Shown here one piece after another: positions 31,754 to 57,373 of a DNA stretch of 64,000 nt. Each line of letters starts with the position of its first letter. Within the stretch, counting starts at the first letter, position 1. Origin of the DNA: Rhodoferax sp. BLA1 (GTDB lineage: Bacteria; Pseudomonadota; Gammaproteobacteria; Burkholderiales; Burkholderiaceae_C); contig NZ_SZVI01000010.1 in assembly GCF_013416775.1 (NCBI RefSeq), positions 248,001-312,000 on the forward strand. Direction: 5' to 3'. A program made the translations under genes and the position numbers. Below the pieces are notes generated by a model, which saw only the letters and a list, made by a program, of their open reading frames with translations, did not search any database and was not told the origin of the DNA.

Positions 31754-32053
31754 TCAGCCGTGGCTGGCGCAGGCCCGGATCGGGATGCTCGGGGTCGCCC
31801 GACCATTTGGCGCGGACGGATCGGCTGGGGCCGCGCCCGTCCACTCAAAAATTTCCACCGTGTTTGGCTGGCATTTGCCGCAGCCACCGCTGCAGGGGGT
31901 GCCACTGGGCAGACGGCTGACCCGGCCCTTGCGTTCGAGCACGGCCAGCATGGCGCGCAAGGCCTCGGCATCGGTGTCCAGCCCGAGCGCCATGTCGTGC
32001 AGACTGGCGCGCCGGTGTTGCTGCAAATAAGCACTCAGGCGTGAAATGATCAT
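31754..32053 (-). CDS. feoC: FeoC-like regulatory protein
   Basis: 99 aa. An N-terminal winged-helix domain (SRLSAYLQQHRRASLHDMALGLDTDAEALRAMLAVLERKGRV) is followed by the cysteine motif CSGGCGKC (Cys54, 58, 61), which in FeoC proteins can bind an iron-sulfur cluster. The C-terminal tail is low-complexity. It lies 19 bases after feoB, as expected for feoABC. The role is inferred as an oxygen- or iron-responsive modulator of FeoB. Confidence 0.85.
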   Translation of the reverse strand: MIISRLSAYLQQHRRASLHDMALGLDTDAEALRAMLAVLERKGRVSRLPSGTPCSGGCGKCQPNTVEIFEWTGAAPADPSAPNGRATPSIPIRACASHG

Positions 32054-32072: not shown

Positions 32073-34412
32073 TCAGGCCGTGCGTGGGCTGGTCAGCGTG
32101 GGGCCAGACTTGCCGGGCGTGCGCCCCAGGTAACGCATCACCGCCAACACCACCGCAAACACCACCAATACACCGCTAATCCAGGCCAGCGAAACACCCG
32201 GGTGGCGCTCGTAGATGGCAGTCTGGTAGGCGATGGTGGACAGGCCGTAGGCCATACCGGTGGTCCAGGCGGCCACAAACAGGGTCCAGCGGGTGCCACT
32301 TTCCTGGTACACCACCGCAATGGCTGCGGTGCAGGGGAAATACAGCAAAATGAACAACAGGTAAGCAAACGCACCGGCAGCACCATCAAAACGCGCAGCC
32401 ATGGCGCCAAAGGTGGCCACAGAGACCTCTTGCTCCTCGGCTACAGCGGCCTGATCGCTGACATCACCAATGTCCAAGCCCAGCGGGTCAGCCCATTTGC
32501 CCAGCGCCTCACTCAGATTGGTGGGCACGGTGTCCCAGGCGGCGGCCAGACCACCCAGCATGTCATAAGGTTCAGCCTCTTCAGGCTCATCACCCGCCGC
32601 TTTGGCGTCACTCTCCGCCAAGGCGCTGTAGGCAGCGTTGAGCGTACCCACCACCGCTTCCTTGGCCAACACCCCGGTGAAGATACCCACCGCAGCGGGC
32701 CAGTTGTCGGCGTTCAGACCCAGCGGTGCAAAGGCCGGGGCAATGGTGCGGCCGACTTCGGCCAGGGCCGATTTGTCGCTGTCTTCGTTGCCAAAGCTGC
32801 CATCGGTGCCCACCGCGTTGAGGAAGTTGAGCACCAGCACCATCGGCACCACAATGCGCCCGGCCTTGACGATGAAGGCCTTGAGCCGGTCCCAGGTGTG
32901 GTGCAGGATGCCTTTGAGTGTGGGCAAGTGGTAGGGTGGCAATTCCATGATGAACGGTGCCACATCACCCTGCAGCAGCGAGTTTTTCAGGATCAAGCCG
33001 GTCAACACGGCCACCGCAATACCAATCAGGTACAGACCAAACACCACGTTTTGCGCGTTGCTCGGGAAAAACGCAGCCGCAAACAACACGTAGACAGGCA
33101 AACGTGCGCCGCAGGACATGAACGGTGCCATGGCAATGGTCAGCAAGCGGTCACGCCGGTTCTCCAGCGTACGGGTGGCCATGACGGCTGGCACATTGCA
33201 GCCAAAACCCACAATCAGTGGCACAAAGGACTTGCCCGGCAGGCCGACCCAGCGCATGAAGCGGTCCATCACAAAAGCGGCGCGTGCCATGTAGCCCGAG
33301 TCTTCCAAGACCGACAGGAACAGGTACAAAAAGCCGATCACCGGGATGAAGGTGGCCACCGTCTGGATACCCCCACCGATGCCGTTGGCGATCAGCACGA
33401 TCAGCCATTCTGGTGAACCCAGGTGGGTCATCAACTCGGTGGTGCCATCCACCAGCACCACCTTGGCGGCTTCGTCAAAGAAGTCGATGAAAGCGCCGCC
33501 GATGTTGATGGTGAACAAAAACATCAGGTACATCAGTACCAGGAAAATCGGGATGCCCAGTGCCCGGTGCAAGACCACGCGGTCAATCCGTTCGGAGGCA
33601 TCACGCGTGAGTTTACTGGTGGTTTTGACCGCTGTTTGCGCGACCCGGTTGGCCAGGCCATAACGTGCGTCGGCCACCAGGATGTCCAGGTCGTCACCGA
33701 GCGCCGCCGCAAACTCGCGGGCCTGCGCCGTGATCTCCGGTCCAGCAGTTTTTTGCGCCAGATCGTCGCCACTGAGCAGTTGCACCGCCAACCATTCAGC
33801 GCGGGCAGGTAATTTGCCAGGCAGGGCACTGATCTGGCGCGCCAGGGTCGTCACTGCCGTTTGCAGGGCGTCTGAATACACCACCTGGGCGCTTGCGCGT
33901 GGCTGTTGTTGTGCCGCCTGGCTGATGGCCGTCTTGAGCTCGGCGATGCCGCTGCCTTTGCTGGCCACCACCGGCAGCACCGGGCAGCCGAGCTGTTCGG
34001 CCAGTTTGGCCGCGTTGACCTGCATGCCTTTGGCGGCGGCCATGTCGGTCATGTTGAGCACCAGCAGCAGAGGCACGCCCATCTCGATCAACTGGGTGGT
34101 GAGGTAGAGGTTGCGCTCCAGGTTGGCCGCATCAACGATGTTGACCACCAGGTTGGCCTCGCCGCTGTGCACGTAGTCGCGGGCGACCCGCTCATCAAGT
34201 GACACCTCGCCGTCCACCACATCGAGTGAATAGGTGCCGGGCAGGTCAATCACCTCTATGTCTGTACTGCCAAGTTTGTAGTTGCCACTTTTTTTCTCGA
34301 CGGTGACACCGGGCCAGTTGCCCACATGTTGGCGTGAGCCGGTCAAGGCGTTGAACAGGGTGGTTTTGCCGCAATTGGGGTTGCCCACCAGGGCCAAAGT
34401 AAATTGCGTCAT
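32073..34412 (-). CDS. feoB: Ferrous iron transporter B
   Basis: 779 aa. An N-terminal G-protein domain (G1 GNPNCGKTT at 10-18, G3 DLPGT near 56, G4 NMTD near 120) is followed by the GDI-like helical region and a polytopic membrane domain with the two gate motifs (FVPLIVGFGCNVPAVMATR; the second in the C-terminal half). A long cytoplasmic loop (about 600-680) holds an acidic stretch. The start overlaps the feoA stop in ATGA. It imports ferrous iron through the inner membrane. Confidence 0.97.
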   Translation of the reverse strand: MTQFTLALVGNPNCGKTTLFNALTGSRQHVGNWPGVTVEKKSGNYKLGSTDIEVIDLPGTYSLDVVDGEVSLDERVARDYVHSGEANLVVNIVDAANLERNLYLTTQLIEMGVPLLLVLNMTDMAAAKGMQVNAAKLAEQLGCPVLPVVASKGSGIAELKTAISQAAQQQPRASAQVVYSDALQTAVTTLARQISALPGKLPARAEWLAVQLLSGDDLAQKTAGPEITAQAREFAAALGDDLDILVADARYGLANRVAQTAVKTTSKLTRDASERIDRVVLHRALGIPIFLVLMYLMFLFTINIGGAFIDFFDEAAKVVLVDGTTELMTHLGSPEWLIVLIANGIGGGIQTVATFIPVIGFLYLFLSVLEDSGYMARAAFVMDRFMRWVGLPGKSFVPLIVGFGCNVPAVMATRTLENRRDRLLTIAMAPFMSCGARLPVYVLFAAAFFPSNAQNVVFGLYLIGIAVAVLTGLILKNSLLQGDVAPFIMELPPYHLPTLKGILHHTWDRLKAFIVKAGRIVVPMVLVLNFLNAVGTDGSFGNEDSDKSALAEVGRTIAPAFAPLGLNADNWPAAVGIFTGVLAKEAVVGTLNAAYSALAESDAKAAGDEPEEAEPYDMLGGLAAAWDTVPTNLSEALGKWADPLGLDIGDVSDQAAVAEEQEVSVATFGAMAARFDGAAGAFAYLLFILLYFPCTAAIAVVYQESGTRWTLFVAAWTTGMAYGLSTIAYQTAIYERHPGVSLAWISGVLVVFAVVLAVMRYLGRTPGKSGPTLTSPRTA

Positions 34413-34642
34413 GCCAGTTTCTCCACCAGCAAGGCCTTGGCCTCGTCCTTGCGCAATGACAGGGCAAAGCCGCGCAGCCGGATTTCCACCGGGTCACCCA
34501 AGGGGGCCAGCCGAGTCAGGCTGATCGACACACCGGGGGTGATGCCCATCGACAGCAGTTTGCGGCGGTAGCTGGCGCCGCCCTCGCCATAACCCAATAT
34601 CCGGGCGGTATCACCGACCTGCAGGTCGCTCAAGCTTGTCAT
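34409..34642 (-). CDS. feoA: Ferrous iron transport protein A
   Basis: 77 aa SH3-like cytosolic protein. SLSDLQVGDTARILGY, RRKLLSMGITPGVSISL and DPVEIRLRGFALSLRKDEA are the FeoA fold landmarks. It is coupled to feoB by a four-base overlap and is needed for FeoB function in other bacteria. It follows the larger FeoA-like gene by 36 bases. Confidence 0.95.
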   Translation of the reverse strand: MTSLSDLQVGDTARILGYGEGGASYRRKLLSMGITPGVSISLTRLAPLGDPVEIRLRGFALSLRKDEAKALLVEKLA

Positions 34643-34678: not shown

Positions 34679-35017
34679 TCAGACGGCAGCCACCAGCACC
34701 CGGTGCGCCAATCCCGCACCCAGGGCATACCGGCTCTCACCACGCTGCACCACCAAACCGCCACCTTGTTGCTGCACCACGCGGATTTCTGCACCCACGT
34801 TGAGTCCGATCTCGGTCATGCGCCGGTCCATGCCGCTGCCACGCAAGGCCGCCACCCGCAGCAACTGGCCCGGTGTGGCCATGCTCAACGGGAAGGTGGC
34901 TTGGGTGCGGTTGCTGCTGGCGTGCGTTGCCTGGCCCGCATCTGCCGACGTTGTCCCGTTGGACGCGGGCTGGAACAGGGCGGCATCGTTGCCTGACAGG
35001 GCGCTGGAAGTGAACAT
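34679..35017 (-). CDS. Second FeoA-domain protein with N-terminal extension
   Basis: 112 aa from the chosen ATG 35017. The FeoA fold occupies the last 70 residues (TPGQLLRVAALRGSGMDRRM and TEIGLNVGAEIRVVQQQGGG). The N-terminal part is Ser/Thr/Ala-rich and looks disordered. Upstream in-frame starts exist at 35050, 35071 and 35083, but 35071 lies inside a Fur-like box, and an FNR-like site at 35077-35090 would place transcription start near 35042. So I favour 35017. Tandem FeoA proteins are common in Burkholderiales feo operons. Confidence 0.8.
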   Translation of the reverse strand: MFTSSALSGNDAALFQPASNGTTSADAGQATHASSNRTQATFPLSMATPGQLLRVAALRGSGMDRRMTEIGLNVGAEIRVVQQQGGGLVVQRGESRYALGAGLAHRVLVAAV

Positions 35018-35053
35018 GGTGCTTTCACGGGCTGGTGGAATGACTGGCATATT

Positions 35054-35072
35054 AATAGGAATGATTCGCATT
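35054..35072 (-). promoter_or_regulatory. Fur-like box, feo operon
   Basis: On the minus strand AATGCGAATCATTCCTATT. It matches the pattern AATGCGAATnATTCnnATT also seen before the tonB operon (53757-53776). It overlaps the expected promoter, so iron-bound Fur would block RNA polymerase. Confidence 0.65.
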
Positions 35073-35076
35073 GTTT

Positions 35077-35090
35077 GTGACAAAGATCAA
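35077..35090 (-). promoter_or_regulatory. FNR/Anr-like site, feo operon
   Basis: On the minus strand TTGATCTTTGTCAC, matching TTGAT-N4-ATCAA at eight of ten defined bases. Ferrous uptake is commonly FNR-activated under low oxygen. Its centre lies about 41 bases before the inferred start of transcription near 35042. Confidence 0.6.
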
Positions 35091-35170: not shown

Positions 35171-36379
35171 TCAGGCGTGGAGCCAGTGGTTGTCGACCCG
35201 GCCGCTGGCCCAGGCGTGCAACTGGCCGGGCAGGGTGGTGTTGGCCTGATTGACCTCTGCCCCGGTGGCCACCTGCATCACACCCGCACGCCCACCGACC
35301 CAGACCGAACTGGCGTCTACCGCCAGGGCACCGGCCTCGGCCAGGGGGGTGCTGCCCAGATACTGACCATCCAATGCATACCGAGCCACCACCTGGCCCC
35401 GGGTGGCGCTGACCAGAAACTGCGCGTGTTGACCCCGCCCGGCCACGGTGACGTCCCCGCCGTAACCCGCGAGTGCTGGTTGGCCAGTGGCCAGAGACAA
35501 GGCGCCTTCGGCTTGATCGGCCCAGCTCAGCCGGGCCAGCAGCGGTGCGGCGGCTTTGAGGGCTGGGTCGTCATGTTCGGCCTGCAAGGCAATGCCCAGG
35601 GTGGGTGTGTTGCTGGCCTGGCTGGGGTCGGGCTGCGCCCAAGCCAGGTGGCGCAGGCTCAGGCGCGGGTCTGGCAAACGCCACTGGCCCAGCCACTCAC
35701 CGGTATCGGGGTGCAGGCAGCAGATGCTGGGGTCCATCTGCTGCAGTTGGCGTTTGACACGCCCGGTTTCGATGCTGGTGTCGATGCCACCATTGGCGAC
35801 AAACAACATGCCAGCCAGAGGATGTGTCTTTGCTATTGAATGGGTAGCTGGTAGCCCAAGTAGAGCATGGGGATCCAGCCCAAAAGTCTTGTATTCTGTC
35901 TGCAGCTGCAGGGTGCGGGCGTCACGCACCCCCAGCAGGCCCTGGCCGTTGTTGGTGTCGATTTCGGTGGTGTAGATGCGCAAGCCGTCCGCACTCACCA
36001 ACACATGGCCGCTGAACACCCGGTCACTGGCTTGCCACAACCACTGGGCGGGTTGGCCGGGCGTCAGTCGGATCAGCCAATCGCCCGGGCGGCGTGCGGC
36101 CACCAGCAGGCTGCCGTCGGGCAGCAGGGCCAGGCCGTGGCCCCGTGTGGGCAGTTCCAGCTGGTGCAGCGTTGTCAGTTGGCCGCTGGCATCGAGCTGC
36201 AGCCAACCGGCGAAATGCTGGCTCTGTGAGTTGTCCCAGCAGGCGGCAAAACGCTGCCCGCTGGGGCGCTTGCGTGTTGTGTGGCTGACCGTGGCGCCAA
36301 GTGCTGACCCCAGCGGCAGCAGTGTCAGGGCGCTCAGGCCCAGGCTTTGTAAGGCGGCGCGGCGTGTCAGCGTCTGCAT
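35171..36379 (-). CDS. DUF1513 domain-containing exported protein
   Basis: 402 aa. The N-terminus MQTLTRRAALQSLGLSALTL has a twin-arginine-like signal. The rest (GHGLALLPDGSLLVAARRPGDW, HPLAGMLFVANGGID, repeated beta-rich blocks) suggests a beta-propeller as in DUF1513. It is the last of three genes after the di-heme oxidoreductase and imelysin genes, an arrangement like PA4371-PA4373 of Pseudomonas. ATG 36379 is preferred over ATG 36397, which overlaps the imelysin gene. A degenerate dispersed repeat lies inside the frame at 35831-35881. Confidence 0.88.
   Translation of the reverse strand: MQTLTRRAALQSLGLSALTLLPLGSALGATVSHTTRKRPSGQRFAACWDNSQSQHFAGWLQLDASGQLTTLHQLELPTRGHGLALLPDGSLLVAARRPGDWLIRLTPGQPAQWLWQASDRVFSGHVLVSADGLRIYTTEIDTNNGQGLLGVRDARTLQLQTEYKTFGLDPHALLGLPATHSIAKTHPLAGMLFVANGGIDTSIETGRVKRQLQQMDPSICCLHPDTGEWLGQWRLPDPRLSLRHLAWAQPDPSQASNTPTLGIALQAEHDDPALKAAAPLLARLSWADQAEGALSLATGQPALAGYGGDVTVAGRGQHAQFLVSATRGQVVARYALDGQYLGSTPLAEAGALAVDASSVWVGGRAGVMQVATGAEVNQANTTLPGQLHAWASGRVDNHWLHA
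35831..35881 (-). repeat. Dispersed hairpin repeat, degenerate copy inside DUF1513 gene
   Basis: On the minus strand it includes GCTCTACTTGGGCTACCAGC followed by TACCCATTCAATAGC. Only loosely related to the family consensus, but A+T-rich in GC-rich surroundings and open in frame. Confidence 0.35.
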
Positions 36380-36386
36380 GAGCGGT

Positions 36387-37595
36387 CTAATCCCCATCGG
36401 CATCGGAAAAGCCCAGCGCAATGTCGAGGGCACTGGCCACCTCGCTCTGGAACAACACCGTCACCGCTTTGAGTGCGGCGGTCAGCGCCAGCAGCTCACG
36501 CTGTTCGGCTGCACGCGAGCTGGTCTGGGCGGGCAACTGGTTGATGCGGGTGTTGACCGCATCCAGCGCCTGGGCCCAGCGTTGGGCCAGCGCGATCTGG
36601 CCCTGGCCCAGCAACAGCGCCTCAATCGGCACCAGTGCCTGGCCTGGTGTGGGTGGCTGGCTCCGTTGCGCCTCGCTCAGCCGTCCTTGGGCCAGCAGGC
36701 TGTGCCATTGGGCGCGCCAGCCTGCCAGATTGGTCTCGCGCCCCATGCGGGCGAATTGAGGGAGGCTGTTTTTGCGTGTCTCACCCAGGGTTTGTGCGGT
36801 TTTGAGGGGTTTATCCAGATGGGCCCAGCGCAGGCGCTCCAGCCCGCCCAGCCACTGGTTGACCCACTCGGCCATCGCGATGGCAGTGTCGTCCGGGGTC
36901 TGCTCCCAGTCTTTGGCTGCCCAGGTGGTCAGTTCCGTACCCAGCTCCGTGGCCTCGACCTGCACGCCCTGCGCCAGCAGGCCCAGGTAGCGGCAGCTGG
37001 CCTCAGAAGGGGTGATCGACCCGCTGCGTTGGCCTGCTGCCACTGGCCGCCACTGTGTCATCAGCAGCTCCATGGCGGGCAAACCTTTGGCGAGGGTGCC
37101 CACGGTTTCCATGTCGGCCAGGGTCTGCGGCGCTTTGGCGAGCGCTTTGGTAAGCAGCTCTGGGCGGGTTGGCCAGAAGTCGATCTGGCGTTGTGAGCGG
37201 CGGGTCAACATCGGCCCGACCGCCGGGGTGGACAGGCTTTCCCAGGCCAGCATGGTGTGTTGCCATTGGGTGTGCAAGCGGGTCCAGGCGGCTTGCCGGG
37301 CAGGCAACGGAGTCCCAGGTGTGGGCAAGCTCTGGCAATACTGCTGGGTGGCAGTCACCAGGGCGTCTGCCTCGGCGGCAAAGCGCTGTGACAGCGGTGG
37401 TAAATGTTGGCTGTACAGGCCTTGCATCACCTCGGCGGGGGAATACATGGGCATCAGTACCTGGGTGGCTGATGGTGTGGCTGCGTGGCTGGCCACCGTC
37501 AGCAGGGCGCTGCCGAGTGCCAGCGCCAGTCTGCGCGCAGGCCCGCTGCCTGGTGTCAAGGGCAGACCTTGATGGGGTGTGGTTTGATGCGTCAA
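36387..37595 (-). CDS. Imelysin-like exported protein (second imelysin)
   Basis: 402 aa. The signal peptide (ARRLALALGSALLTVASHA) is followed by an imelysin-like helical fold. Where classical imelysins have GxHxxE, this one has GLPAMELL, so the metal-type histidine is missing, as in the PA4372-like subgroup. The start is assigned to TTG 37595 because GGAGG precedes it by five bases; the upstream ATG at 37649 abuts the previous stop and would prepend residues encoded by a hairpin repeat. Likely a periplasmic iron-related protein; the mechanism is unknown. Confidence 0.82.
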   Translation of the reverse strand: MTHQTTPHQGLPLTPGSGPARRLALALGSALLTVASHAATPSATQVLMPMYSPAEVMQGLYSQHLPPLSQRFAAEADALVTATQQYCQSLPTPGTPLPARQAAWTRLHTQWQHTMLAWESLSTPAVGPMLTRRSQRQIDFWPTRPELLTKALAKAPQTLADMETVGTLAKGLPAMELLMTQWRPVAAGQRSGSITPSEASCRYLGLLAQGVQVEATELGTELTTWAAKDWEQTPDDTAIAMAEWVNQWLGGLERLRWAHLDKPLKTAQTLGETRKNSLPQFARMGRETNLAGWRAQWHSLLAQGRLSEAQRSQPPTPGQALVPIEALLLGQGQIALAQRWAQALDAVNTRINQLPAQTSSRAAEQRELLALTAALKAVTVLFQSEVASALDIALGFSDADGD

Positions 37596-37598
37596 ATT

Positions 37599-37647
37599 GG
37601 CCTCCAGCCCTTTTTTAATAAGGGGATATAGCTCTGAAATAAAGAGC
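37599..37647 (+). repeat. Dispersed hairpin repeat between the di-heme and imelysin genes
   Basis: GGCCTCCAGCCCTT (37599-37612) with an AAGGGG half (37620-37625), then TATAGCTCT and a second small hairpin GCTCT/AGAGC (37631-37647). Its minus-strand GGAGG supplies the apparent ribosome-binding site of the imelysin gene. Confidence 0.65.
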
Positions 37648-37649
37648 AT

Positions 37650-39438: not shown

Positions 39439-39753
39439 TTACTCCGGCACGTAGACGATGCCGCCGTCCTTCATCCGGTAGGCGGTGCCAGCCTTGGCGC
39501 CTTCACCCTGACCGATCTGGCCGCTGGCTTTGTAGCGCTCGATTTTTTCGCCCTTTTTCACCATCATTTCCATGGTCGGTTTGCCTGCATCGGTGATCAC
39601 GGTCACGTCACGCTGGCTGAAGCTGTTGAGCATCGGGTTTTGCGCCACGGTGATCAACAAGGCGGCGATGATCACCAGAAAGATGTCGATGATGTTGACC
39701 ACCGACAGGATCGGGTCGTCGTTCTCGGGTTCGTGGAGCAATTTCAGGCTCAT
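39439..39753 (-). CDS. DUF2149 protein, ExbD-like
   Basis: 104 aa. One membrane span near the N-terminus (SVVNIIDIFLVIIAALLI) places Asp23 at its start, exactly where ExbD has its proton-path Asp (PLVDVML, also Asp23 in the ExbD of this window). A short periplasmic domain follows. The start overlaps the ExbB-like stop in ATGA. DUF2149 accompanies CobN-like proteins and MotA/TolQ/ExbB proteins in heme-acquisition operons of the Hmu type. Likely half of a dedicated proton-driven motor. Confidence 0.85.
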   Translation of the reverse strand: MSLKLLHEPENDDPILSVVNIIDIFLVIIAALLITVAQNPMLNSFSQRDVTVITDAGKPTMEMMVKKGEKIERYKASGQIGQGEGAKAGTAYRMKDGGIVYVPE

Positions 39754-40241
39754 GCTTTGGCCCTTTGCTGCAGGATCACCATTTCTTCGGCCAGCCAGCG
39801 GCGGCGCACATTGGCCACCCAGTAGGTGATGCTGGCCGCAATCAGCGCCAGAATCACCGCCGAAAACGCCACCGTGAGGCTGCCCGACACCTGCGCCAGG
39901 TTGCCATCGGACAAGGATTTGAGGGCTGGCCCCATCGGGATCATGGTGCCGACCAGGCCCAGCATGGGGGCAATCCGGCTGGCCAGGCATTCGGGCTCCA
40001 GCAGCTTGTGGGCAAACAAGTCCAGCTCATCTTCACTGGCCTGCGGGAACTTCTCGGCGTGGCGCAGCAGCGGGAACCCCCGGCCCTGCTGGGGCTGGCG
40101 CCGCTGCAAAGCCTGCACCACAAAGGCACCCAGCGCGTAGAGCGCGTAGACAAACAGCAGGGCGACCAGCCCCAACACCGGCAGCAAAAACAGCTGGCCC
40201 ACCTGGTACATCAACAATTCAATCATGGAACTTTCTTTCAT
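39750..40241 (-). CDS. MotA/TolQ/ExbB-type proton-channel protein
   Basis: 163 aa. Three membrane spans: LFLLPVLGLVALLFVYALYAL near the N-terminus, then the pair in IAPMLGLVGTMIPMGPALKS and GSLTVAFSAVILALIAASITYWV, which matches the TolQ/ExbB core. The start ATG 40241 overlaps the ChaN gene stop in ATGA; ATG 40226 (five residues in) is the alternative. It is much shorter than the canonical ExbB at 54596. It would form an energising complex with the DUF2149 protein. Confidence 0.85.
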   Translation of the reverse strand: MKESSMIELLMYQVGQLFLLPVLGLVALLFVYALYALGAFVVQALQRRQPQQGRGFPLLRHAEKFPQASEDELDLFAHKLLEPECLASRIAPMLGLVGTMIPMGPALKSLSDGNLAQVSGSLTVAFSAVILALIAASITYWVANVRRRWLAEEMVILQQRAKA

Positions 40242-41158
40242 TTGGATTCTGGGGGCTGGGCTGGTGCGGCGGCAGGGGCCACCAGGCCGGTCAGCGGTTT
40301 GGCGCAGGCATCGGGCCGGGGTGTGGCGGCGGTGAACCACAGCAGGTCAAACCCGGCGCTGTCGTAGTCACGGGGGTTGAGCCTGCCGTCAAGCACCTCC
40401 ACAAAAGCGATGCTCAGAGCCCGGCTGGGTTCGGCCAGGTACTGGGGCACAGCGCGGTCGCTGCGCAAATGGCCGGCGCCAGCCACCAGCACCACCGGGC
40501 CGGGCACGCTGTCCAGCACCTGGGCCATCTGCAGGTCACGTGCCCGTTGTGCCGCCACGATGCGGGTCAGCAGTTGGGGGTTGGGGCGGTGACCACAGTG
40601 GCCTTCAACCACGTCGTCTTCCAGGTGGGCCATCTGGGTTGCAGACAACACCGGCAACTCGGGTGCCACTTTGCCCAGGGCGATGTTGCGTGCGTCAGCG
40701 CGCGACAGGTTGGCCGCCAGCAAGGGCCAATGCTGCTGCGCGGCGTGGCTGATGAGAGCCTTGTACATCGGCCAGCGCCAGCCCTCGCGATGGAGTTGGC
40801 CCGCGTCGGCCAGGGCTTCGGCATCGGTGGTGCCGCTGTGTTGCGCAGCGCTCAGGGCGCTCTGGTGTTGGACATCGAATTGCTCCAGCGCCAGGGCGGG
40901 TTGTCGCCCCTGGTCTGCCAGCGCTTGCAGCACCTGCAACTGGCGTGCATGGTGGATGGCACTGTCGTGTTTTTCACCGAGCAAGACATAACGGCTGGCG
41001 CCTGCGCGCTGAAACGCTTGTTGGGAGCTGATGAACTGACCCGAACGCACATCCCAGATGCGGTCCGTCAACGCATGGCTTGGCGTGGTGTCGGCGGGTG
41101 GGCTGGCACAGGCCGTCAGTATCAGGCTCAAAGTGAGCAGGGGTAACCAGGGTCTCAT
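40238..41158 (-). CDS. ChaN-family heme-binding lipoprotein
   Basis: 306 aa. The lipoprotein signal MRPWLPLLTLSLILTAC has Cys17 as the lipidated residue. The Cofac_haem_bdg/ChaN landmarks LLGEKHDSAIHHARQ and VLVAGAGHLRSDRAVPQYL are present. ChaN of Campylobacter binds cofacial heme, so heme handling is supported by family. ATG 41158 overlaps the CobN-like stop in ATGA and has GGAG upstream; ATG 41170 would add four residues. A proline/alanine-rich tail ends the protein. Confidence 0.87.
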   Translation of the reverse strand: MRPWLPLLTLSLILTACASPPADTTPSHALTDRIWDVRSGQFISSQQAFQRAGASRYVLLGEKHDSAIHHARQLQVLQALADQGRQPALALEQFDVQHQSALSAAQHSGTTDAEALADAGQLHREGWRWPMYKALISHAAQQHWPLLAANLSRADARNIALGKVAPELPVLSATQMAHLEDDVVEGHCGHRPNPQLLTRIVAAQRARDLQMAQVLDSVPGPVVLVAGAGHLRSDRAVPQYLAEPSRALSIAFVEVLDGRLNPRDYDSAGFDLLWFTAATPRPDACAKPLTGLVAPAAAPAQPPESK

Positions 41159-44100
41159 GTTGTTCTCCATTGTTGCCAGGCACCTGCCAGCGGTGCCAAA
41201 AATAATAGCGATAGTGCGAGCAATAACAAGGGCTCCAAGGCATTTGGAGTCTCAGGCTGCACAGACTCCAGTTTCAAACCGGTGATCTGGGGTGGCACAG
41301 GCGCTGGCGCCGGTTGGGGAACGGGGGCCGCAGCTGGCGCAGCGACGGGCCGGTTGACAGCGCGAGGGGCTGAGGGGCTCATCAAGGCCTCCTGGGGCAC
41401 CTGTGATTGGCTCAGGCCGTAACCTGGCAAACCGACAAATTCCTGCAGGCTGCGGTTGTCGGTGCGCACGTCAAAGCGTTGGGCCAGGTCCTTGTAGCGT
41501 GCTTTCAACTCGTCGACGGTGGCGCTATCGGCTTGCCAGTAACCCTGGCGTGCCATCTCCAGCATGCGTTCCATCATCTGCGCCAGGGCATGCGGATTGT
41601 TGCGCTCCATCCACTGCGTGATGCCCAGTTGGTGTTTATCGCGCACATACACGTCGGCAAACTCCTGCCACTGGTCATCACGCACGATCTCGCGTGCCAC
41701 CGTGGTCCAGCCGGTGAAGTTGTTGAGGCTGTCGAGCATCTGGGTGGTGCCGGCATAACCCTCTTTCATCAGCGCCTGGATATGGCCTGGGTGAAAGTTG
41801 CGTGTGGCCAGTTCCTTGGCCAAAAAGCTGGCGGCATCTTCCGCCTTGCCTGAGCCCGTGCCACGCAGGTTCGAGATCAACAGCTCCGGCGCTTTGCCGT
41901 CGATGTAACGCACCGCTGCGGCAATGCCACCCAGGTACTGGAACGGGTCGTCGGTGGTGAGCATGCCGTACAGGTTGGAGCTGCGCGCCAGCACCGCCGC
42001 CTGAGTGCCTTTGAGCTGGGTCGCGTACAGGTTGACAGCTGTGCTGCCATCGGCTCCGGCCGCACTGGCCAGATCGGCGCCACTTTTGCCCCAATCGGCC
42101 TCATCCGGGCCATAGGCAAACTGCATTTTGCGCAGGTACAGCTCGGCCATTTTGCGGTCACCTTCGGCCTTGCTCTTCCAGGTGTCGGTGGCCAGGGCCG
42201 CATCGTCCAGGCCGGAGCCGTAGTTGCCTGATGCGCTGGCGAAAATCCGGGTTTCGCCAGCTTTCTGGGCGGCCTCGGTGCGCCAGCCCTGCGCTGCCAG
42301 TTGCCCCGCCACCGTGCGGGTGTTGTGGGCCACCGCGTTGTCGGCCTCGTTGGTGGCCTGTGCGGCCAGTTGCGCCGCCCGCGCCAGCTGTTTCAACACG
42401 TTGGGAAAGTGGTCGCGGTACAGGCCGGTGGCGGACAACACCACGTCAATGCGCGGTCGACCCAGGGTCTGGCGTGGCACCAGCTTGACGTCCACCACCC
42501 GTCCGCCTGCATCCCAGACCGGCTCGACACCCATCGCCCAGAGTGCCTGTGCTTCGAGCAGGCCCTGGTGGCGCATGGTTTCGACCGACCAGAGAGAGAA
42601 GGTGAATTTGGATGGCATCACACCGGTTTTCTGCCGGTGCGCCGCCACCAGTTTGTCCAGCGCTTCCTGGCCTGCCTTCCAGGCGGCCTGGGTCGGCACA
42701 CGGGACGGGTCAAAGCCGTACAGGTTACGCCCGGTGGGCAGGCTGTCGGGGTTTTTGATCGGGTCACCGCCGTAAGACGTGGGGATGTAGCGGCCGTCCA
42801 GCGCCGCCAGCAGACCACGGGTTTCACCTTCCGCCTGCAGGTCGGTGAACCAGCGTTGGCCTTGGGCCACCATGGCCCGGAGTTTGGGTGGCAGGGTGTC
42901 CACGGCTGCGCCTTGCACCAGATGGCGGCGCAACAGTTGGTAGGGCGCGGTCTGCGCGATTTTGCTGAAGTCCGTCACGACGGCTTCATCCGCCTGTTTG
43001 TTGTTGCCGTCCACAAACACCGCCGTGGCTTCCCAGAATGGTGCCCCGAGCATCATCAACACGGTGGCCAGTTGGCCGTGTTCGCCCGCACCTTTGCCAA
43101 AGGTGTGCAAACCCAAGGGTTGCGCGGTCTGGGCCAGTTCGTGCAAATGGTCGTGCAGGGCGTTGACAAAGGTCGGAAATTCCTGCGCCATGCGCGTCTG
43201 GCTCCAGCCCATGTCCAGGTCAATGCGTTCCTTGGCCACGGTTGCCATAAGCTGGGCGCGCAACTGCTCTTTGACCACACCTTCATCCTGGGCCAGCCAG
43301 GCGTGTAAATCGTCGTGCAACTGGGTCAGCACCGAGTGCAGCCCGGCCGGGGCAAATGGCGGGGTCTGGTAGCTGATGTTGACCGCACGGCCACGCCGTT
43401 TGGTCTGCACCGCCTCGCCAATGTTGTCAACGATGTAGGGGTAAATCACCGGCACGTTGCCAATCGCCAGCAAGGCGTAGTCGGTCACCGACAGGCCGCG
43501 CTCTTTGCCGGGTAGCCACTCTTGGGTACCGTGGGTGCCGTAGTGGATCAAGGCATCGGCCTTGAACTGCTCACGCATCCACAAATAGCCTGCCATGTAG
43601 GAGTGTGGCGGTGCCGCGCTGCTGGAGTGGTAGATGGCTTTGTTTTTGGCATACACACCACCCCCCGCGGGTTCACCACGAGGTGGTTGCGGCAGGATGC
43701 TGATGTTGCCGAGTTTCAGGCGCGGAATCGCAAAGTAGGTTTTGCCATCCCTCTGCACCAGAAATACCGACTTGTCAGGGTGACCCACAGCCGTTACCCA
43801 GGCCTCGCGCTGCGCGTCGGGCAGGCTGGCCAGCCAGGTTTTGTAGGTGGCCAGCGGCATCAGTTCAGCCAGGCCGTCACGTACCAGTGCGTCCATTTCA
43901 TCGGCCACGGTGCCGGGACGGTAAAAGGGTTTGAGCAGGCGCTGCATCTGGCGCGTCAGTGTGGCCGCATCGGGTGTCTCAGTGCGGTAACCTGCTGCCT
44001 TCATGGCCGCCAGCGTGGCCTCCAGGCTGGTGGGCAGGTTCATGAAGGAGGCCCCCAGGTTTTTCTCGCCCGGCGGGTAGTTCCAGAACATGAAGGCCAC

Positions 44101-45207
44101 CTTTTTGTCGGCATTGGCCAGCCGGTTCAAGCGGGCCAGGGCCAGGGCTTTGCCGACCACCGCCGCCGTTTGCTCGGGAATGGCTTGAACCTGTTCGCTG
44201 GCTTTGTTGGTGGCAGCGGCCACCATCACATCCAACACACCGGCATATTCAGGTTGCGACAGGTAGAAGGGTACGTCCATGAGGCTGATGCCCACCGGAT
44301 CTTGCGCCCACACATCGGCATCCGCTTTTCGGTAAGCCATGGCCTGGATCACCGGGATGCCCAGCTTGTCAAACTCGGCGCGGCGGCCTTCTGGATTGAG
44401 CAAAATCTGGGTGCTGATCAGCACGTTGGCCAGCGCTTGGCCTTCGGGAGCCAGCAGCCGGGTGATGGCGCTGTTGTCCATCACCGGGCTGTAAAAAGCC
44501 AGAGGCACCGCGCCAGCGGCCTCGATGCGGGTGATCAGGTCGTCGATCAGGCCGGTTTGTTCTGCGGCGATGGCCTGTTGGTGAAAGGCGATGGCCACCA
44601 CTGGTTTGCCCCGCACATCACCCCTCCAGCGCAGGTAGGCTGCGGTGTTGTCAAACACCAGTTGGGGCGCCTTGGGGTGGTAGATGGCTGTGGCGGCAAA
44701 CACCTGGGGTGGGGCCAGGTGTTGCCAGGGTTGGCGCGCCAGATGGGCGGCCAGGGTGGCAAAAAAGCCCGCGTTGTTGGTGCGCCCACCATTCACGTAG
44801 TAGGCGTGCAGGCGTTTTGCCAGGTCGTCGGGTAGGTGTTGCCATTGCGGCTGGCTGGTGTGTAACCACAAAACGGGTGTTCTGGCCAGCGCCAGGGCGG
44901 GCAGTGCGTCTTTCACTTTGGCGGATATGGCCTCCTGGATGTGGTCGCGCGGTGCGTCAAACATCACCGCGTCAAACCCTTGCCAGAGGCTGGCGTCGAC
45001 GTTGCCGAGTTTTTCAACAAACCTGGCTTCGACCTGGATGCCATAAGGCGCTGCCACCGCCGACAAAACCCGAAACTTGCCGGGTGTGATCGGGCTGGTG
45101 GTGACAAACAGCACCGATGCGGCGAAGGATGTCAGTGGCAAACACAGCAAACAACACCAAGCCAGCAGCCGCAGCGCAAAGCGCTGGGCAAGTGATAAAC
45201 AACACAT
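41155..45207 (-). CDS. Exported, membrane-tethered CobN/Mg-chelatase-H-like protein (HmuS-like)
   Basis: 1350 aa. An N-terminal signal peptide (cleavage about residue 29, TSFA) sends the chelatase-H fold to the periplasm. The conserved family block HYGTHGTQEWLPGKE lies near residue 553. A Pro/Ala-rich linker (about 1285-1315) leads to one C-terminal membrane span (LLLLALSLLFLAPLAGAW). Cytosolic cobaltochelatase CobN has neither signal nor anchor, and no CobS/CobT-type AAA subunits are present, so vitamin B12 chelation is unlikely. The context (heme-type receptor, ChaN, ExbB-like, DUF2149) fits removal of metal from heme or passage of a porphyrin, as proposed for HmuS. Confidence 0.82.
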   Translation of the reverse strand: MCCLSLAQRFALRLLAWCCLLCLPLTSFAASVLFVTTSPITPGKFRVLSAVAAPYGIQVEARFVEKLGNVDASLWQGFDAVMFDAPRDHIQEAISAKVKDALPALALARTPVLWLHTSQPQWQHLPDDLAKRLHAYYVNGGRTNNAGFFATLAAHLARQPWQHLAPPQVFAATAIYHPKAPQLVFDNTAAYLRWRGDVRGKPVVAIAFHQQAIAAEQTGLIDDLITRIEAAGAVPLAFYSPVMDNSAITRLLAPEGQALANVLISTQILLNPEGRRAEFDKLGIPVIQAMAYRKADADVWAQDPVGISLMDVPFYLSQPEYAGVLDVMVAAATNKASEQVQAIPEQTAAVVGKALALARLNRLANADKKVAFMFWNYPPGEKNLGASFMNLPTSLEATLAAMKAAGYRTETPDAATLTRQMQRLLKPFYRPGTVADEMDALVRDGLAELMPLATYKTWLASLPDAQREAWVTAVGHPDKSVFLVQRDGKTYFAIPRLKLGNISILPQPPRGEPAGGGVYAKNKAIYHSSSAAPPHSYMAGYLWMREQFKADALIHYGTHGTQEWLPGKERGLSVTDYALLAIGNVPVIYPYIVDNIGEAVQTKRRGRAVNISYQTPPFAPAGLHSVLTQLHDDLHAWLAQDEGVVKEQLRAQLMATVAKERIDLDMGWSQTRMAQEFPTFVNALHDHLHELAQTAQPLGLHTFGKGAGEHGQLATVLMMLGAPFWEATAVFVDGNNKQADEAVVTDFSKIAQTAPYQLLRRHLVQGAAVDTLPPKLRAMVAQGQRWFTDLQAEGETRGLLAALDGRYIPTSYGGDPIKNPDSLPTGRNLYGFDPSRVPTQAAWKAGQEALDKLVAAHRQKTGVMPSKFTFSLWSVETMRHQGLLEAQALWAMGVEPVWDAGGRVVDVKLVPRQTLGRPRIDVVLSATGLYRDHFPNVLKQLARAAQLAAQATNEADNAVAHNTRTVAGQLAAQGWRTEAAQKAGETRIFASASGNYGSGLDDAALATDTWKSKAEGDRKMAELYLRKMQFAYGPDEADWGKSGADLASAAGADGSTAVNLYATQLKGTQAAVLARSSNLYGMLTTDDPFQYLGGIAAAVRYIDGKAPELLISNLRGTGSGKAEDAASFLAKELATRNFHPGHIQALMKEGYAGTTQMLDSLNNFTGWTTVAREIVRDDQWQEFADVYVRDKHQLGITQWMERNNPHALAQMMERMLEMARQGYWQADSATVDELKARYKDLAQRFDVRTDNRSLQEFVGLPGYGLSQSQVPQEALMSPSAPRAVNRPVAAPAAAPVPQPAPAPVPPQITGLKLESVQPETPNALEPLLLLALSLLFLAPLAGAWQQWRTT

Positions 45208-45216
45208 TGGTTGAGC

Positions 45217-47448
45217 TTAAAAGCTATGGGTCAGGCTGACCGTGAAGTTGCGACCGGGCTGGCTGTAGGCATCCACCACATTGCTGCTGGCACTCAGACT
45301 GCGGACATCGGCCCATTCGACGTATTTACGGTCAAACAGGTTGTTGATGCCTGCTGTCAACCGGGTGGCTTTGCTGAACGCGTACCAACCAGAGACATCC
45401 ATCACCGAGTAACCGCCGGGTGTGTAACCGCTGGCGTTGGGGTTGCGTTTTTTGCGATCAACGGCTTTGAACACACTCTCCACACCCCAGCTGGCGCCAT
45501 GGGTGTAGCGCAGCCCCAGCACCAGTTTGTCTGGGTCAATGGTGTCCAGAGGTTTTTTCACACCATTGTTGATCGAGTCACCTTCGGCATGGGCGTAGGC
45601 CGCTGAAACTGTCCAGCCTTTGGCAAAGGACCAGTCCCCACGGAATTCGACACCTTGGATGGTGACATTGTTGAGGTTGATGCTTTGGTACACGTCGGGT
45701 GTAGGCCTGGTGTTGTCCGTGATCAGCACATTGCTGGCGATGAAGTCCTTGTATTTGCCGCGAAAAGCACTGACGCTGTAGCGGCGCGTGGCATCACCGC
45801 CGCGCAGGCCCACTTCAAGGGTGTCACTGGTTTCGGCCTTGAGGTTGGGGTTGCCGATGGAGGTGTAGGGATCTGTCGCTGTCAGGTTGGTTACACCACC
45901 ATTGACCTGGCTGGCTTTGGGTGCACGAAAGCCGTGGGCGTACTGGGTGAAGAAGTTGGTCATGGGTGCCAGTCGCCACACCATACCGAGTTTGGGTGAA
46001 AGCGCGGAGTCACTCAGTTCGGACGGTGTGGTCTGGTTGTTGACCTGGTAGAGCGCGCTGGTTTTGGGTGAGAGCTTGAAGCTGTCGAAGCGCAAACCGG
46101 GGGTCACACTGACCGCGCCTAAGTTGATCTCGTCCTGCACGAAGGCGCCAAAGGTGCTGTAGTCGGTGTCCGGGAAACTGGTGTTGTTGACAAACGCGGT
46201 GCCACTGCTGTTGTAGCCCTCTTTGACCAAGGCCACCTGCGTCCGCGCCACATCCAGCCCATACACCATTCTGTGGGGAATGTCGCGCCCGGCGCTGCTT
46301 TCAAACTGGATGCTGCCACCCACCGTGTCTTCCGAATAGTCGGTGTCGCGGGTGCGCACCAGCGGATTGGTGGAGCGGGCCTCAAAGCCGTATTGGTGGT
46401 TGACGGAGCGCTGGCCGTAGACGCTGGTGAGCAGAACATCAAACCAGGTCGCTTGGGTGGGGATGTACTGGTAATCGATCTTGGCCAGATCGCGGGAGAT
46501 GTTTTCCCGCGCGTCCACTTTGGTGAGTGTCGCTACGGTGAACGGGTCACCAAAAAAGCTCAGGATGTTGGTGTCGTTCTGCCGGTCCAGTGTTTCCATG
46601 GTCAGTTTGACCTGATGACCACCGCCCGGGTTGAAGATCAGTTTGGACAGCAGGTAGTCCACCTCGGTGTCGGACGGGTTGGGCGTGGTGCGGTTCAGGT
46701 TGGCCACATCGTTGGTGCCCATGTTGTCGGTTTCGTGGCCACGCCGGAAGCTGGTCAGGATCATGCCTTGTACGGTGTCACCCTTGAAGGCAAAACTGGG
46801 CGCGACTTGCACCGAGTGGTCGGCCGACGCATAGGCAGTTTTCAGGTTGAACTGGGTCGTATTGCCCAGGGTCAGCAGGTCGGACGGGTCCTTGGTCAGG
46901 AAACTCACCGCACCGGCCAGCCCGTCGGAGCCAAATTGGGTGCTCGATGCACCGCGCAAGATCTCCACACGTTTGTAACCTTCTGACTCCAGTGTGTCGC
47001 CACGTCCGGCGGCATAAGGGCCACTTTCGTAGGTGGCGGGCAGACTCACACCGTCCACCTGCAGACGCACCTGGTCACCCTCCAGGCCTCGGATGTTGAC
47101 CCCCTCGTTGCCACCGCGGCCGGTGTTGTAGAACACGCCAGAGGCTCGGTTCGGCTGGGCCCGCACCGAGACACCCACTTCGTTTTTGAGCAAATCCTCC
47201 AGATCGGTTGGATTCTGGTTGGCGATATCTTGCGCGGTGATGGTGGTGATGGTGGCTGGCACATCATCGAGTTCTTGCTCCACACGGCTGCCGCTGACCA
47301 CCACCACTTTGAGTGTGGCAGAGGTTTGTGCCTGTGGTTCGTTCGCCAGTGCGGTTTGCCCCCAGCTTGCGGCCGTGCCCCAAGCAAGCCCCAGGCACAG
47401 GGAGAGTTTGGTCAGAGAAAAATCACCAGAAGTACGCCAATTCGCCAT
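45217..47448 (-). CDS. TonB-dependent heme/hemoglobin-type receptor
   Basis: 743 aa outer-membrane barrel. The signal peptide is followed by a TonB-box-like segment (TLKVVVVSGSR), a plug domain (VPATITTITAQDIANQNPTDLEDLLKNEVGV; VEILRGASSTQFGSDGLAG) and a barrel ending in VSLTHSF. The heme-receptor boxes FRAP (YAHGFRAPK, about 503) and NPNL (IGNPNLKAET, about 532) are visible. ATG 47448 is preferred because GGAT lies upstream and an upstream in-frame start (47508) precedes a hydrophilic stretch. First gene of a five-gene operon with 9 bases or overlap between members. Confidence 0.92.
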   Translation of the reverse strand: MANWRTSGDFSLTKLSLCLGLAWGTAASWGQTALANEPQAQTSATLKVVVVSGSRVEQELDDVPATITTITAQDIANQNPTDLEDLLKNEVGVSVRAQPNRASGVFYNTGRGGNEGVNIRGLEGDQVRLQVDGVSLPATYESGPYAAGRGDTLESEGYKRVEILRGASSTQFGSDGLAGAVSFLTKDPSDLLTLGNTTQFNLKTAYASADHSVQVAPSFAFKGDTVQGMILTSFRRGHETDNMGTNDVANLNRTTPNPSDTEVDYLLSKLIFNPGGGHQVKLTMETLDRQNDTNILSFFGDPFTVATLTKVDARENISRDLAKIDYQYIPTQATWFDVLLTSVYGQRSVNHQYGFEARSTNPLVRTRDTDYSEDTVGGSIQFESSAGRDIPHRMVYGLDVARTQVALVKEGYNSSGTAFVNNTSFPDTDYSTFGAFVQDEINLGAVSVTPGLRFDSFKLSPKTSALYQVNNQTTPSELSDSALSPKLGMVWRLAPMTNFFTQYAHGFRAPKASQVNGGVTNLTATDPYTSIGNPNLKAETSDTLEVGLRGGDATRRYSVSAFRGKYKDFIASNVLITDNTRPTPDVYQSINLNNVTIQGVEFRGDWSFAKGWTVSAAYAHAEGDSINNGVKKPLDTIDPDKLVLGLRYTHGASWGVESVFKAVDRKKRNPNASGYTPGGYSVMDVSGWYAFSKATRLTAGINNLFDRKYVEWADVRSLSASSNVVDAYSQPGRNFTVSLTHSF

Positions 47449-47562: not shown

Positions 47563-47582
47563 TATGAGAAGCATTCGCATTT
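47563..47582. promoter_or_regulatory. Fur-like box between the heme receptor and cytochrome c genes
   Basis: TATGAGAAGCATTCGCATTT, in the divergent gap between the receptor operon (minus) and cytochrome c gene (plus). A second GATAA-N5-TTATC palindrome follows at 47585-47599, so two adjacent Fur dimers are possible. Confidence 0.65.
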
Positions 47583-47599: not shown

Positions 47600-47645
47600 C
47601 GATGCTCAGACGGAGCGTTTTCTTTCATGAATGGAGAGACACACA

Positions 47646-47987
47646 ATGAAGTCAATCAAGCTATCTCTGTTGTTTGGTGCTGGTCTGTTGTTGGCCGGTG
47701 CGGCGCAAGCAGACGAAGCGCTGGCCAAAGCCAAGGGCTGCCTGGCCTGCCATACGGTCGAAGCCAAGGTGTTGGGGCCGGCCTACAAGGCGGTGGCCAA
47801 AAAATACAAAGGTAAAAAAGACGCAGAGGCCACATTGGCGCAACACATCCTCAAAGGCACACCGATGCCTGCGGGTATGGGTTGGCAAAAGGAAGGTCAG
47901 GCCAGCTTGCCGTTTATGCCGGCCAATGCCTCGGTGAGCCCGGCCGATGCCAGCAAACTGGCCAAGTGGATTCTCAGCCTTCAGTAG
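47646..47987 (+). CDS. Small class I cytochrome c
   Basis: 113 aa periplasmic monoheme cytochrome. The signal peptide ends at AQA (residue 22). The heme motif CLACH is at 32-36 and the likely Met ligand is in LPFMPANASV near the C-terminus. It resembles cytochrome c-551/552. ATG 47646 with GGAGAG upstream is chosen over ATG 47631. Its place beside iron-uptake genes and a Fur-like box suggests iron-dependent control; its redox partner is unknown (perhaps the di-heme protein). Confidence 0.92.
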   Translation: MKSIKLSLLFGAGLLLAGAAQADEALAKAKGCLACHTVEAKVLGPAYKAVAKKYKGKKDAEATLAQHILKGTPMPAGMGWQKEGQASLPFMPANASVSPADASKLAKWILSLQ

Positions 47988-48099
47988 GGGGTATTGAACA
48001 CCCGCCCATGAACTGGCGCGGATGTTGCTGAAAGCGTCAGGGGCAGGGCGCTTGGTTGGGCAACTGCACTCGACTGCCGGTGCAGATATATTAAAAACA

Positions 48100-48136
48100 A
48101 TAGCTATCATCCCTTATGGAATAAGGGATGGAGGCC
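48100..48136. repeat. Dispersed hairpin repeat, probable bidirectional terminator
   Basis: CATCCCTTAT (48108-48117), loop GGA, ATAAGGGATG (48121-48130): a perfect ten-pair stem, flanked by TAGCTAT and GGAGGCC. It lies between the convergent cytochrome c and imelysin genes, 45 bases past the end of the imelysin frame. Confidence 0.75.
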
Positions 48137-48180
48137 AATTTCTTACATAATGACCAGTTGCGTTGGCAACCGGGTCAGCT

Positions 48181-49386: not shown

Positions 49387-49426
49387 GAGGGTCCTTGTGG
49401 TGAGTGAACAACGTATGATATTTCAC

Positions 49427-49446
49427 AATAAGAACGATTCGTATTT
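49427..49446. promoter_or_regulatory. Fur-like box between imelysin and siderophore receptor genes
   Basis: AATAAGAACGATTCGTATTT, with the inner palindrome ACGA-T-TCGT at 49434-49442. It is well placed to control both divergent genes. Confidence 0.65.
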
Positions 49447-49576
49447 GTGATAGACTAAATTTTCGGCGGCTGCCTTCACCCCACTGCAGCCAGCCTTCAC
49501 CAGCCAGTCAAGTCACGTCACCGTTCTACGGTGCCTGTGTCCTAGCCAGCCAACACCCAACCAGGTACCAAACGCT

Positions 49577-55314: not shown

Positions 55315-55725
55315 ATGGCTTTTGGAACCCAATCCGATGCCGACGATGTGATGAGTGAGATCAACATGACACCGCTGGTGGATGTCATGCTGGTGTTGCT
55401 GATTATTTTCATCATCACCATTCCGGTGATGAAGCACTCGGTCAATGTGGACTTGCCGGTGGCAGCCAACCAGCCGCAAGTGGTTTTGCCGCAGACCATC
55501 CGGCTCAGTGTGGACGCGCAGGGCCAGTACTACTGGAACGAAGCCCTGGTAAGTGAGTCTGCTTTGCCGGGGTTGTTACAAACCGAGGCCGCGCGTGAGC
55601 CGCAACCCGAGTTGCACTTGCGGGGTGACAAGGCGGTGCGTTATGAACGTGTGGCGCAAGTTATGGCGGCCGCACAGCGGGCAGGCTTGCGCAAAATCGG
55701 TTTTGTCACGGAGCCCGGGCAGTGA
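55315..55725 (+). CDS. exbD: ExbD proton-channel subunit
   Basis: 136 aa. One span with the essential Asp23 (MTPLVDVMLVLLIIFIIT) followed by a periplasmic domain (LHLRGDKAVRYERVAQVMAAAQRAGLRKIGFVTEP). Stop and hemP start overlap in TGATG. Confidence 0.96.
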   Translation: MAFGTQSDADDVMSEINMTPLVDVMLVLLIIFIITIPVMKHSVNVDLPVAANQPQVVLPQTIRLSVDAQGQYYWNEALVSESALPGLLQTEAAREPQPELHLRGDKAVRYERVAQVMAAAQRAGLRKIGFVTEPGQ

Positions 55726-57341: not shown

Positions 57342-57373
57342 GGTGATGGATTATGCATGATTTCCCCACAAGT

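Follow-up and report, generated by a model that had tools for sequence, protein, structure and literature searches.

A Fur-associated, hmu-like operon with a ChaN-family lipoprotein and an exported CobN-like protein in Rhodoferax sp. BLA1, a candidate system for removing iron from heme outside the cytoplasm

In a gut Bacteroides, HmuS was demonstrated in 2025 to be a heme de-chelatase (PMC12583661), and the hmu operon of Bacteroidota is induced by iron starvation (PMC10434189). In Bacteroides fragilis, normal growth on heme iron depends on FeoAB and on the CobN-like BtuS proteins (PMC6460266); here as below, the literature is cited from excerpts of the papers. We describe a related gene set on a 64,000-nucleotide stretch of Rhodoferax sp. 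BLA1 (contig NZ_SZVI01000010.1, positions 248,001 to 312,000), which we refer to as the window and to which all coordinates apply. An earlier note on this DNA had read five of its genes as an Hmu-like heme operon with ChaN as an inserted component. Our analysis tips slightly towards a reading in which these genes would carry out Fur-controlled, hmu-like removal of iron from heme outside the cytoplasm, using a separate lineage of exported CobN proteins of the "BtuS" type. Taken by itself, heme is quite probably the substrate, and, if heme is the substrate, de-chelation would be somewhat favored over its absence. Gene content and order, the conserved Fur box, the association with ChaN, clade placement and residue losses were computed directly.

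The operon extends on the minus strand from 47448 to 39439. Its five genes encode a TonB-dependent receptor of the heme/hemoglobin type (45217..47448; 743 amino acids, ATG at 47448), a BtuS-like protein of the CobN/ChlH/HmuS superfamily (41155..45207; 1350 amino acids), a ChaN-family lipoprotein predicted to bind heme (40238..41158), an ExbB/TolQ/MotA-family protein as HmuU counterpart (39750..40241) and a DUF2149 protein as HmuV counterpart (39439..39753). Receptor and CobN-like gene are separated by 9 bases, and at the three remaining junctions the genes overlap by ATGA; this layout and both receptor boxes, FRAP and NPNL, are found just as the earlier note had described them. The longer open reading frames (ORFs) listed for the DUF2149 gene start too early, its true product being 104 amino acids long. 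The operon proteins score above the curated cut-offs of PF00593/PF07715, TIGR01786, TIGR01785, PF02514, PF04187, PF01618 and PF09919. The hmu order R-S-U-V is borne out, in the form R-S-ChaN-U-V.

Relatives were collected with DUF2149, the best marker of the operon, in 399 genomes of the family and 369 of the class. DUF2149 was present in 58 and 21 of these, respectively (the window's genome included in each), and was missing from the four same-genus genomes among those listed. The 84 DUF2149 places besides the window's own yielded 80 stretches (those in genomes G155, G288, G294 and G333 were left out), and a scan of genome contigs with the window's CobN-like protein led to 14 named loci. The order receptor-CobN-ChaN-ExbB-DUF2149 is identical in seven other loci (L060, L139, L140, L141, L142, L143, L150) and is therefore not a matter of chance. 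Six of the seven belong to Rhodoferax, Curvibacter and one Burkholderiales metagenome-assembled genome, with CobN-like proteins 73-95% identical to that of the window; among named relatives, Rhodoferax sp. U11-2br comes closest (95%). Rhodoferax antarcticus (L146) has the same order, but its CobN and ExbB genes are each broken across reading frames and no DUF2149 was detected; this operon may be decaying or misassembled. Among other relatives, a second TonB-dependent receptor gene lies between CobN and ExbB at L090:8606-10735, and L061, L087 and L091 have a gap of similar size at this position.

The CobN-like protein is matched by PF02514 from end to end. Its best solved match is HmuS (PDB 9d26, 388.2 bits), followed by CobN (7c6o, 339.9 bits). 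Trees were built from rows with a CobN ORF of more than 900 amino acids, which excludes, for example, L059 and L146, and with a single Bacteroidota sequence as HmuS anchor. In a 90-row tree, the window protein falls into a clade A of 16 rows (support 98), near a clade B of 23 rows (100). Given more anchors and a richer model, a tree of 48 rows separates 37 ExbB/DUF2149-linked rows from six cytoplasmic CobN and five ChlH/BchH rows (98). In both trees, HmuS of Bacteroides thetaiotaomicron (BtHmuS) and L064 form their own branch (100), and the window protein is placed elsewhere.

The name that NCBIfam assigns (CobN, NF004644, 1360.7 against a cut-off of 1248), the DDxFQYxGG motif common to the window protein and MtCobN, and the BtuB/CobU-type operons included in a related clade would fit a true cobaltochelatase CobN that serves B12 synthesis, or a protein of corrinoid salvage. 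We consider either function highly improbable. The tree comparison with CobN proposed in the earlier note leaves the protein outside true CobN, the operon contains no cob genes, and its receptor is of the heme and not the BtuB type. In addition, the protein appears to be exported and membrane-anchored: the signal peptide and C-terminal span claimed before can be recognized as a hydrophobic N-terminus and a C-terminal hydrophobic stretch, export having been judged by eye, not with a signal-peptide program, in the window and a sample of relatives. Trees and export signals together led us to reject a true cobaltochelatase. In one 0.4-Mb genome of the same class (L199, G018), a CobN was found that groups with true CobN.

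The receptor scores above the cut-offs of both heme-receptor models (TIGR01786, 395.3 against 323.75; TIGR01785, 366.4 against 316.85), while the siderophore-receptor model TIGR01783 remains below its own (143.6 against 223.5). Its nearest PDB chain is PhuR (8the, E 2.1e-88; next match 2.4e-23), which is matched over nearly the whole receptor at 33% identity. A BtuB receptor, named earlier among the outcomes that would speak against heme, is not what these models indicate. All seven heme-type receptors tested (window, L060, L086, L140, L144, L148, L058) pass both models. For L082 and L090 of clade B and for L121 outside clade B, the best model was CirA, and for L071 of clade C the B12 receptor, in each case below the model's cut-off. 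The receptor of L140, L141 and L143 is about 35% identical to that of the window and precedes the same downstream genes. Of these three, L140 was tested and is above both heme cut-offs, and we read this as a receptor swap that kept the heme-receptor family. At L144:7130-7930, a gene for a TonB-C domain is flanked by the genes for the heme-type receptor and the CobN-like protein.

The ChaN protein matches PF04187 with 122.7 bits (cut-off 27.7) and carries a lipobox (LTAC) by eye. The nearest solved chain is 2g5g (E 1.2e-13), which we take to be ChaN of Campylobacter jejuni and which has the LLGEKHD motif in common with it; the window ChaN differs in being part of a receptor/chelatase operon. 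That ChaN belongs to the operon, as had been claimed, turned out to be real and recurrent: the survey of neighborhoods found it in 14 of the 16 clade-A operons (not in L088 and L148) and in none of the 68 other rows with usable flanks. For the latter count, flanks were added for 29 of the loci whose stretches stopped at CobN (those of clade C, L117, L118 and L124), BtHmuS, L113 and L145 were dropped for want of a downstream flank, and the flanks of L248, L254, L266 and L271 are short, at contig ends. Two arrangements occur. ChaN lies between CobN and ExbB in the window, in the seven relatives of identical order and in L146, and the CobN and ChaN genes overlap by ATGA in all eight relatives with ChaN inside the operon. 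In L059, L063, L066, L086, L093, L097 and L098, ChaN directly follows DUF2149 with overlapping junctions.

ChaN is commoner than the operon, being present in 118 of 200 family genomes; in the window's genome, the operon copy is the only one. A ChaN tree to which 25 non-operon ChaNs were added (4 of the 29 fetched lacked the trimming motif) places the two operon arrangements in two separate groups (100/100 and 100/99), and in none of 200 bootstrap trees does a branch unite the two to the exclusion of the other ChaNs. The readings left would be two independent recruitments into the same operon clade, or one with later replacement by a different ChaN. Either history makes a functional link of ChaN with the operon likely. 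A first ChaN model, from untrimmed ORFs, gave extra matches of 20-46 bits in L061, L062, L083, L087, L088, L091, L144, L147 and L151 and second matches in L060, L141, L143 and L150, all of which we rejected; a core-domain model found the 15 counted loci only, plus a weak match in L116 (E 0.011). In a metronidazole-resistant strain of B. fragilis, a ChaN lipoprotein is down together with HmuY proteins and receptors (PMC10102347). No paper joining ChaN with a CobN-like operon was found among open-licence full texts, which is a provisional result. Free-standing ChaN genes of the family (L153-L182) showed, by eye, a PurU-like neighbor in two clusters of five loci each among these 30.

The Fur-like box that had been noted ahead of the operon is TGCGAATGCTTCTCA (47565..47579, minus strand), located by pattern match in the interval that separates the receptor gene from a divergently oriented cytochrome c gene. 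It matches 13 of 14 Fur-type positions, a score not reached in 100 shuffles and not independent, as the pattern had been relaxed after the box was seen. Allowing at most one mismatch, the pattern has seven matches at six places in the genome, compared to one for a reversed control. Four of the six are iron-type promoters by eye, namely the operon and ORFs similar to FecI/FecR, FecB and FbpA; at two (L134, L136), no iron gene was evident by eye. We scanned 77 promoters, leaving out the 18 of 95 loci without a receptor in the stretch. Among the 16 clade-A rows, 14, the window included, have a Fur-type box of at least 12/14 ahead of the receptor (L066 and L148 do not). The same holds for 11 of 23 clade-B rows (where the identical rows L053/L149 and L083/L151 are each counted twice), and clade C, of whose 27 tree rows 21 were scanned, has none. 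These counts support Fur-type control of the operon. A second Fur-type box with one mismatch lies at 57373-57387, upstream of an FbpA-like iron-binding gene (by eye).

Several observations weigh against heme de-ironing. Support for clade A is only 83 in the 48-row tree, which holds nine of its rows. Heme-receptor operons outside clade A (L144, L058) lack ChaN, and no clear lipobox was seen by eye in six of the eight relatives with ChaN inside the operon (of these, L139 and L146 have one), so that membrane anchoring of ChaN would not be essential. FeoB is nearby in only three of the nine loci of this arrangement, with flanks of at most 10 kb. At the receptor, residues 137 and 532 of the 8the chain, which we take to be the axial His/Tyr heme ligands of PhuR, correspond to Arg and Asn, and an alignment of 19 heme-type receptors shows no conserved His. 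Such a receptor might take up a non-heme iron chelate of the siderophore type, with reductive or chelatase-assisted release of the metal, and both the Fur control of the operon and the sister clade B, with its CirA-like receptors (two tested) and its share of Fur-type boxes, would be in line with this. The heme models above and the siderophore model below their cut-offs argue in the other direction, as does the recruitment of ChaN in this heme-receptor clade alone among the rows examined, and we regard siderophore-type uptake as improbable.

The similar core set PA1922-PA1925 of Pseudomonas aeruginosa is Zur/zinc regulated (PMC4542158; PMC9431628) and strongly induced on zinc loss (PMC4542158; PMC9431628; PMC8531726), which likewise speaks against heme and would be matched by an operon acquiring zinc or cobalt from another chelate, with the CobN-like protein handling Zn or Co. 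The promoters do not point this way. The Zur-like score never exceeded 10/14 in the 77 promoters scanned; the window promoter reaches 9/14 (p 0.51), and the top score, 10/14 (p 0.03), belongs to L131, outside the window's clade. Zinc control was rejected on these grounds. With the Fur box conserved, the receptor above both heme cut-offs, unlike the CirA-like receptors of L082, L090 and L121, and ChaN and Feo associated with the operon, zinc or cobalt acquisition is a poor candidate. The substrate cannot be read from gene content alone, as zinc-regulated and B12-type sets also exist. Of the latter kind, L071 in the 27-row clade C combines CobN-like, ExbB and DUF2149 genes with those for CobU, a BtuB-like receptor and a protein of CobB/CobQ type, and L102 of the same clade has them with a periplasmic binding protein and an ABC ATPase. 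These two loci, the clade-C loci tested by family, apparently have an exported chelatase in a B12 context.

HmuS is defined by Met79, His254-Gly-Arg, Gln299, a Met-rich insert and the motif LSLDHxxEFMGG (PMC12583661), and a 2026 paper on Porphyromonas gingivalis names two equivalent sites (PMC13227078). The window protein keeps the superfamily motif HFG(T/A)HG as HYGTHG, in which His559 corresponds to HmuS His538, while Glu598 corresponds to Glu577 and Asp1086 to Asp1208. By superfamily alignment, His559, Glu598, Asp1086 and Asp1087 are the candidate active-site residues, and all of clade A retains the catalytic His together with the counterpart of Glu577. Further points against heme de-ironing are found elsewhere in the alignment. 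HmuS Met79, His254 and Gln299 are replaced by Pro, Ile and Phe, and no HGR is present; His1209 is replaced by Asp1087 and Glu1212 by Gln1090 (LTTDDPFQYLGG). This Asp/Gln pair occurs in every examined row of clades A, B and C and is no mark of heme specificity, because these clades have different receptors. The Met-rich insert is missing as well, with 252 residues and 6 Met between the two motifs, compared to 331 residues and 17 Met in HmuS, counted in a fragment without residues 771-851. Based on residues, insert and tree, we rejected an identity with HmuS: the protein has neither Met79, His254, His1209 nor the Met-rich insert and sits in a separate clade. Of the heme-operon reading put forward earlier, the heme-type receptor, Fur control, hmu-like architecture and ChaN are upheld, but the CobN-like protein is not HmuS. 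A structure model of the protein (mean predicted local distance difference test score, pLDDT, 63.8; below 50 from model residue 1040 on) did not discriminate in Foldseek between CobN 7c6o (1.2e-47) and HmuS 9d26 (2.8e-47).

In the survey, other members of the superfamily were observed. L064:2286-6911, from the family of the window, is a true HmuS (1114 bits to 9d26) with Arg at the Met79 position. L065, L092, L099, L100 and L123 carry the HmuS His1209/Glu1212 pair (LDTDHPFEYLGG) outside the HmuS branch, and L065 has its own TonB-C gene. L125-L132 form a distinct CobN-like branch beside ExbB-like genes, with HLGRHS and NNDxFDY replacing the usual motifs.

With the diagnostic residues of HmuS missing, the CobN-like protein might instead be a periplasmic tetrapyrrole hub for heme or porphyrin transfer, the iron being removed elsewhere or the heme used intact. 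In B. fragilis, a double mutant in btuS continued to make and release protoporphyrin (PMC6460266), which favors such a role and counts against de-chelation. So do the two PF01126 matches in the window's own genome. One is a heme-oxygenase-domain gene beside a phytochrome-like gene and the second an iron-containing redox enzyme, so another heme route may exist. Apart from the operon's CobN-like protein, PF02514 matches a single protein of the genome, the Mg-chelatase subunit BchH (932.6 bits to ChlH), which we therefore rejected as a true CobN and which suggests that the host probably makes bacteriochlorophyll; such a genome could use porphyrins. Nevertheless, HemS was absent from the genome on search, its best match to the heme ABC ATPase HmuV scores 245.3 against a cut-off of 261, with none above, the catalytic His and Glu577 equivalent are conserved across clade A, and FeoABC lies nearby. 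A transfer hub is therefore an unlikely explanation, if one to be taken seriously, and we continue to prefer heme de-ironing by the CobN-like protein.

Downstream of the operon and on the same strand follow genes for a di-heme oxidoreductase (DHOR, PF06537; 37650..39146), a second protein without a Pfam match at E 0.01 (36387..37649) and a DUF1513 protein (35171..36433), a flanking cluster of which DHOR is not needed for the model. Next come a FeoA-domain protein (34679..35083), FeoA (34409..34642), the ferrous-iron importer FeoB (32073..34412) and FeoC (31754..32053). L139 repeats the series from DHOR to FeoB, L146 has FeoA/FeoB on the other side of the operon, and DHOR/imelysin genes are found within 10 kb in L140, L142, L143 and L150. 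On the other side of the window operon, positions 47631-51895 hold genes for a cytochrome c, an imelysin (PF09375) and a TonB siderophore-type receptor, and this region plus the operon would make up a larger iron-gene island.

The ExbB-like protein matches PF01618 with 36.5 bits. DUF2149 has a conserved N-x-x-D in its one membrane helix, which makes it a candidate ExbD-like partner. A hhalign comparison of 82 DUF2149 with 25 ExbD sequences gave a weak match of this helix (probability 64%, 21 columns around the conserved Asp), and the structure model of DUF2149 is poor (pLDDT 54.7), with only helix 14-38 confident. We take both proteins to be an ExbB/ExbD-like channel that may serve the receptor or the chelatase. 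A classical ExbD gene is located at 55351-55716, so the genome has ExbD besides DUF2149.

In the preferred reading, the PhuR-like receptor would carry heme or a similar metalloporphyrin across the outer membrane, as suggested by its family. ChaN would bind heme in the periplasm and hand it on, in keeping with its own family and its two putative independent recruitments. The exported CobN-like protein, anchored in the inner membrane by its C-terminus, would hold the tetrapyrrole in the superfamily cleft and pull the iron with His559 and Asp1086/Asp1087, the latter at the positions that Asp1208 and a second His occupy in HmuS; that it demetallates in the periplasm is our inference. Fe(II) could then enter through the neighboring FeoABC, which adjacency and the B. 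fragilis genetics make plausible, and ExbB with DUF2149 may act as a proton-driven motor for receptor or chelatase.

A broader proposal, which we put forward tentatively and hold to be rather doubtful, is that the exported CobN-like protein and its ExbB/DUF2149 motor form a receptor-programmed platform for periplasmic demetallation. On one chassis, heme receptors (with ChaN and Fur), CirA-like receptors (zinc/iron) or BtuB-like receptors (B12) would be mounted, and any metallo-tetrapyrrole supplied would be demetallated by a His/Asp-Asp site unlike that of HmuS. ChaN would have been recruited twice as a heme shuttle, giving a proteobacterial heme-iron route without heme oxygenase. Apart from this proposal, the operon points to heme de-chelation in betaproteobacteria by exported chelatases of a lineage related to HmuS but distinct from it, and it would assign a definite function to ChaN, a family of heme-binding lipoproteins whose role is uncertain. 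Natural variants without His1209 and the head/neck heme site make the proposed residue roles testable. The locus also bears on the reading of P. aeruginosa PA1922-PA1925, whose zinc link is unexplained, and the substrate is the main question.

Among known systems, PhuR (8the) is the best solved match of the receptor, with neither ligand position kept. PA1922-PA1925, compared by description in the excerpts cited above, likewise has genes for a TonB receptor, a CobN-like protein, an ExbB/ExbD-family protein and DUF2149, but is under Zur instead of Fur control, its receptor is annotated as CirA and no ChaN is listed there. BtuS, the third CobN type (Rodionov et al. 2003, cited in PMC6460266), resembles the window protein as an exported, membrane-anchored CobN-like protein and in the FeoAB-dependent use of heme iron in B. 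fragilis (PMC6460266); the BtuS proteins differ in being from Bacteroidota, and ChaN is not mentioned in the excerpt of that paper. Like hmuYRSTUV with its HmuS (Bacteroidota, PDB 9d26), the window operon combines a receptor, a membrane-anchored CobN-superfamily protein that keeps the active-site His, an ExbB-type protein and DUF2149 in the same order. Unlike hmuYRSTUV, it has ChaN inserted and no counterpart of HmuY or HmuT, and its CobN-like lineage is separate from HmuS, with no Met-rich insert and without Met79, His254 and His1209. Systems of this general type are already known, mainly from gut bacteria, and what is new here is ChaN, the non-HmuS active site and the host.

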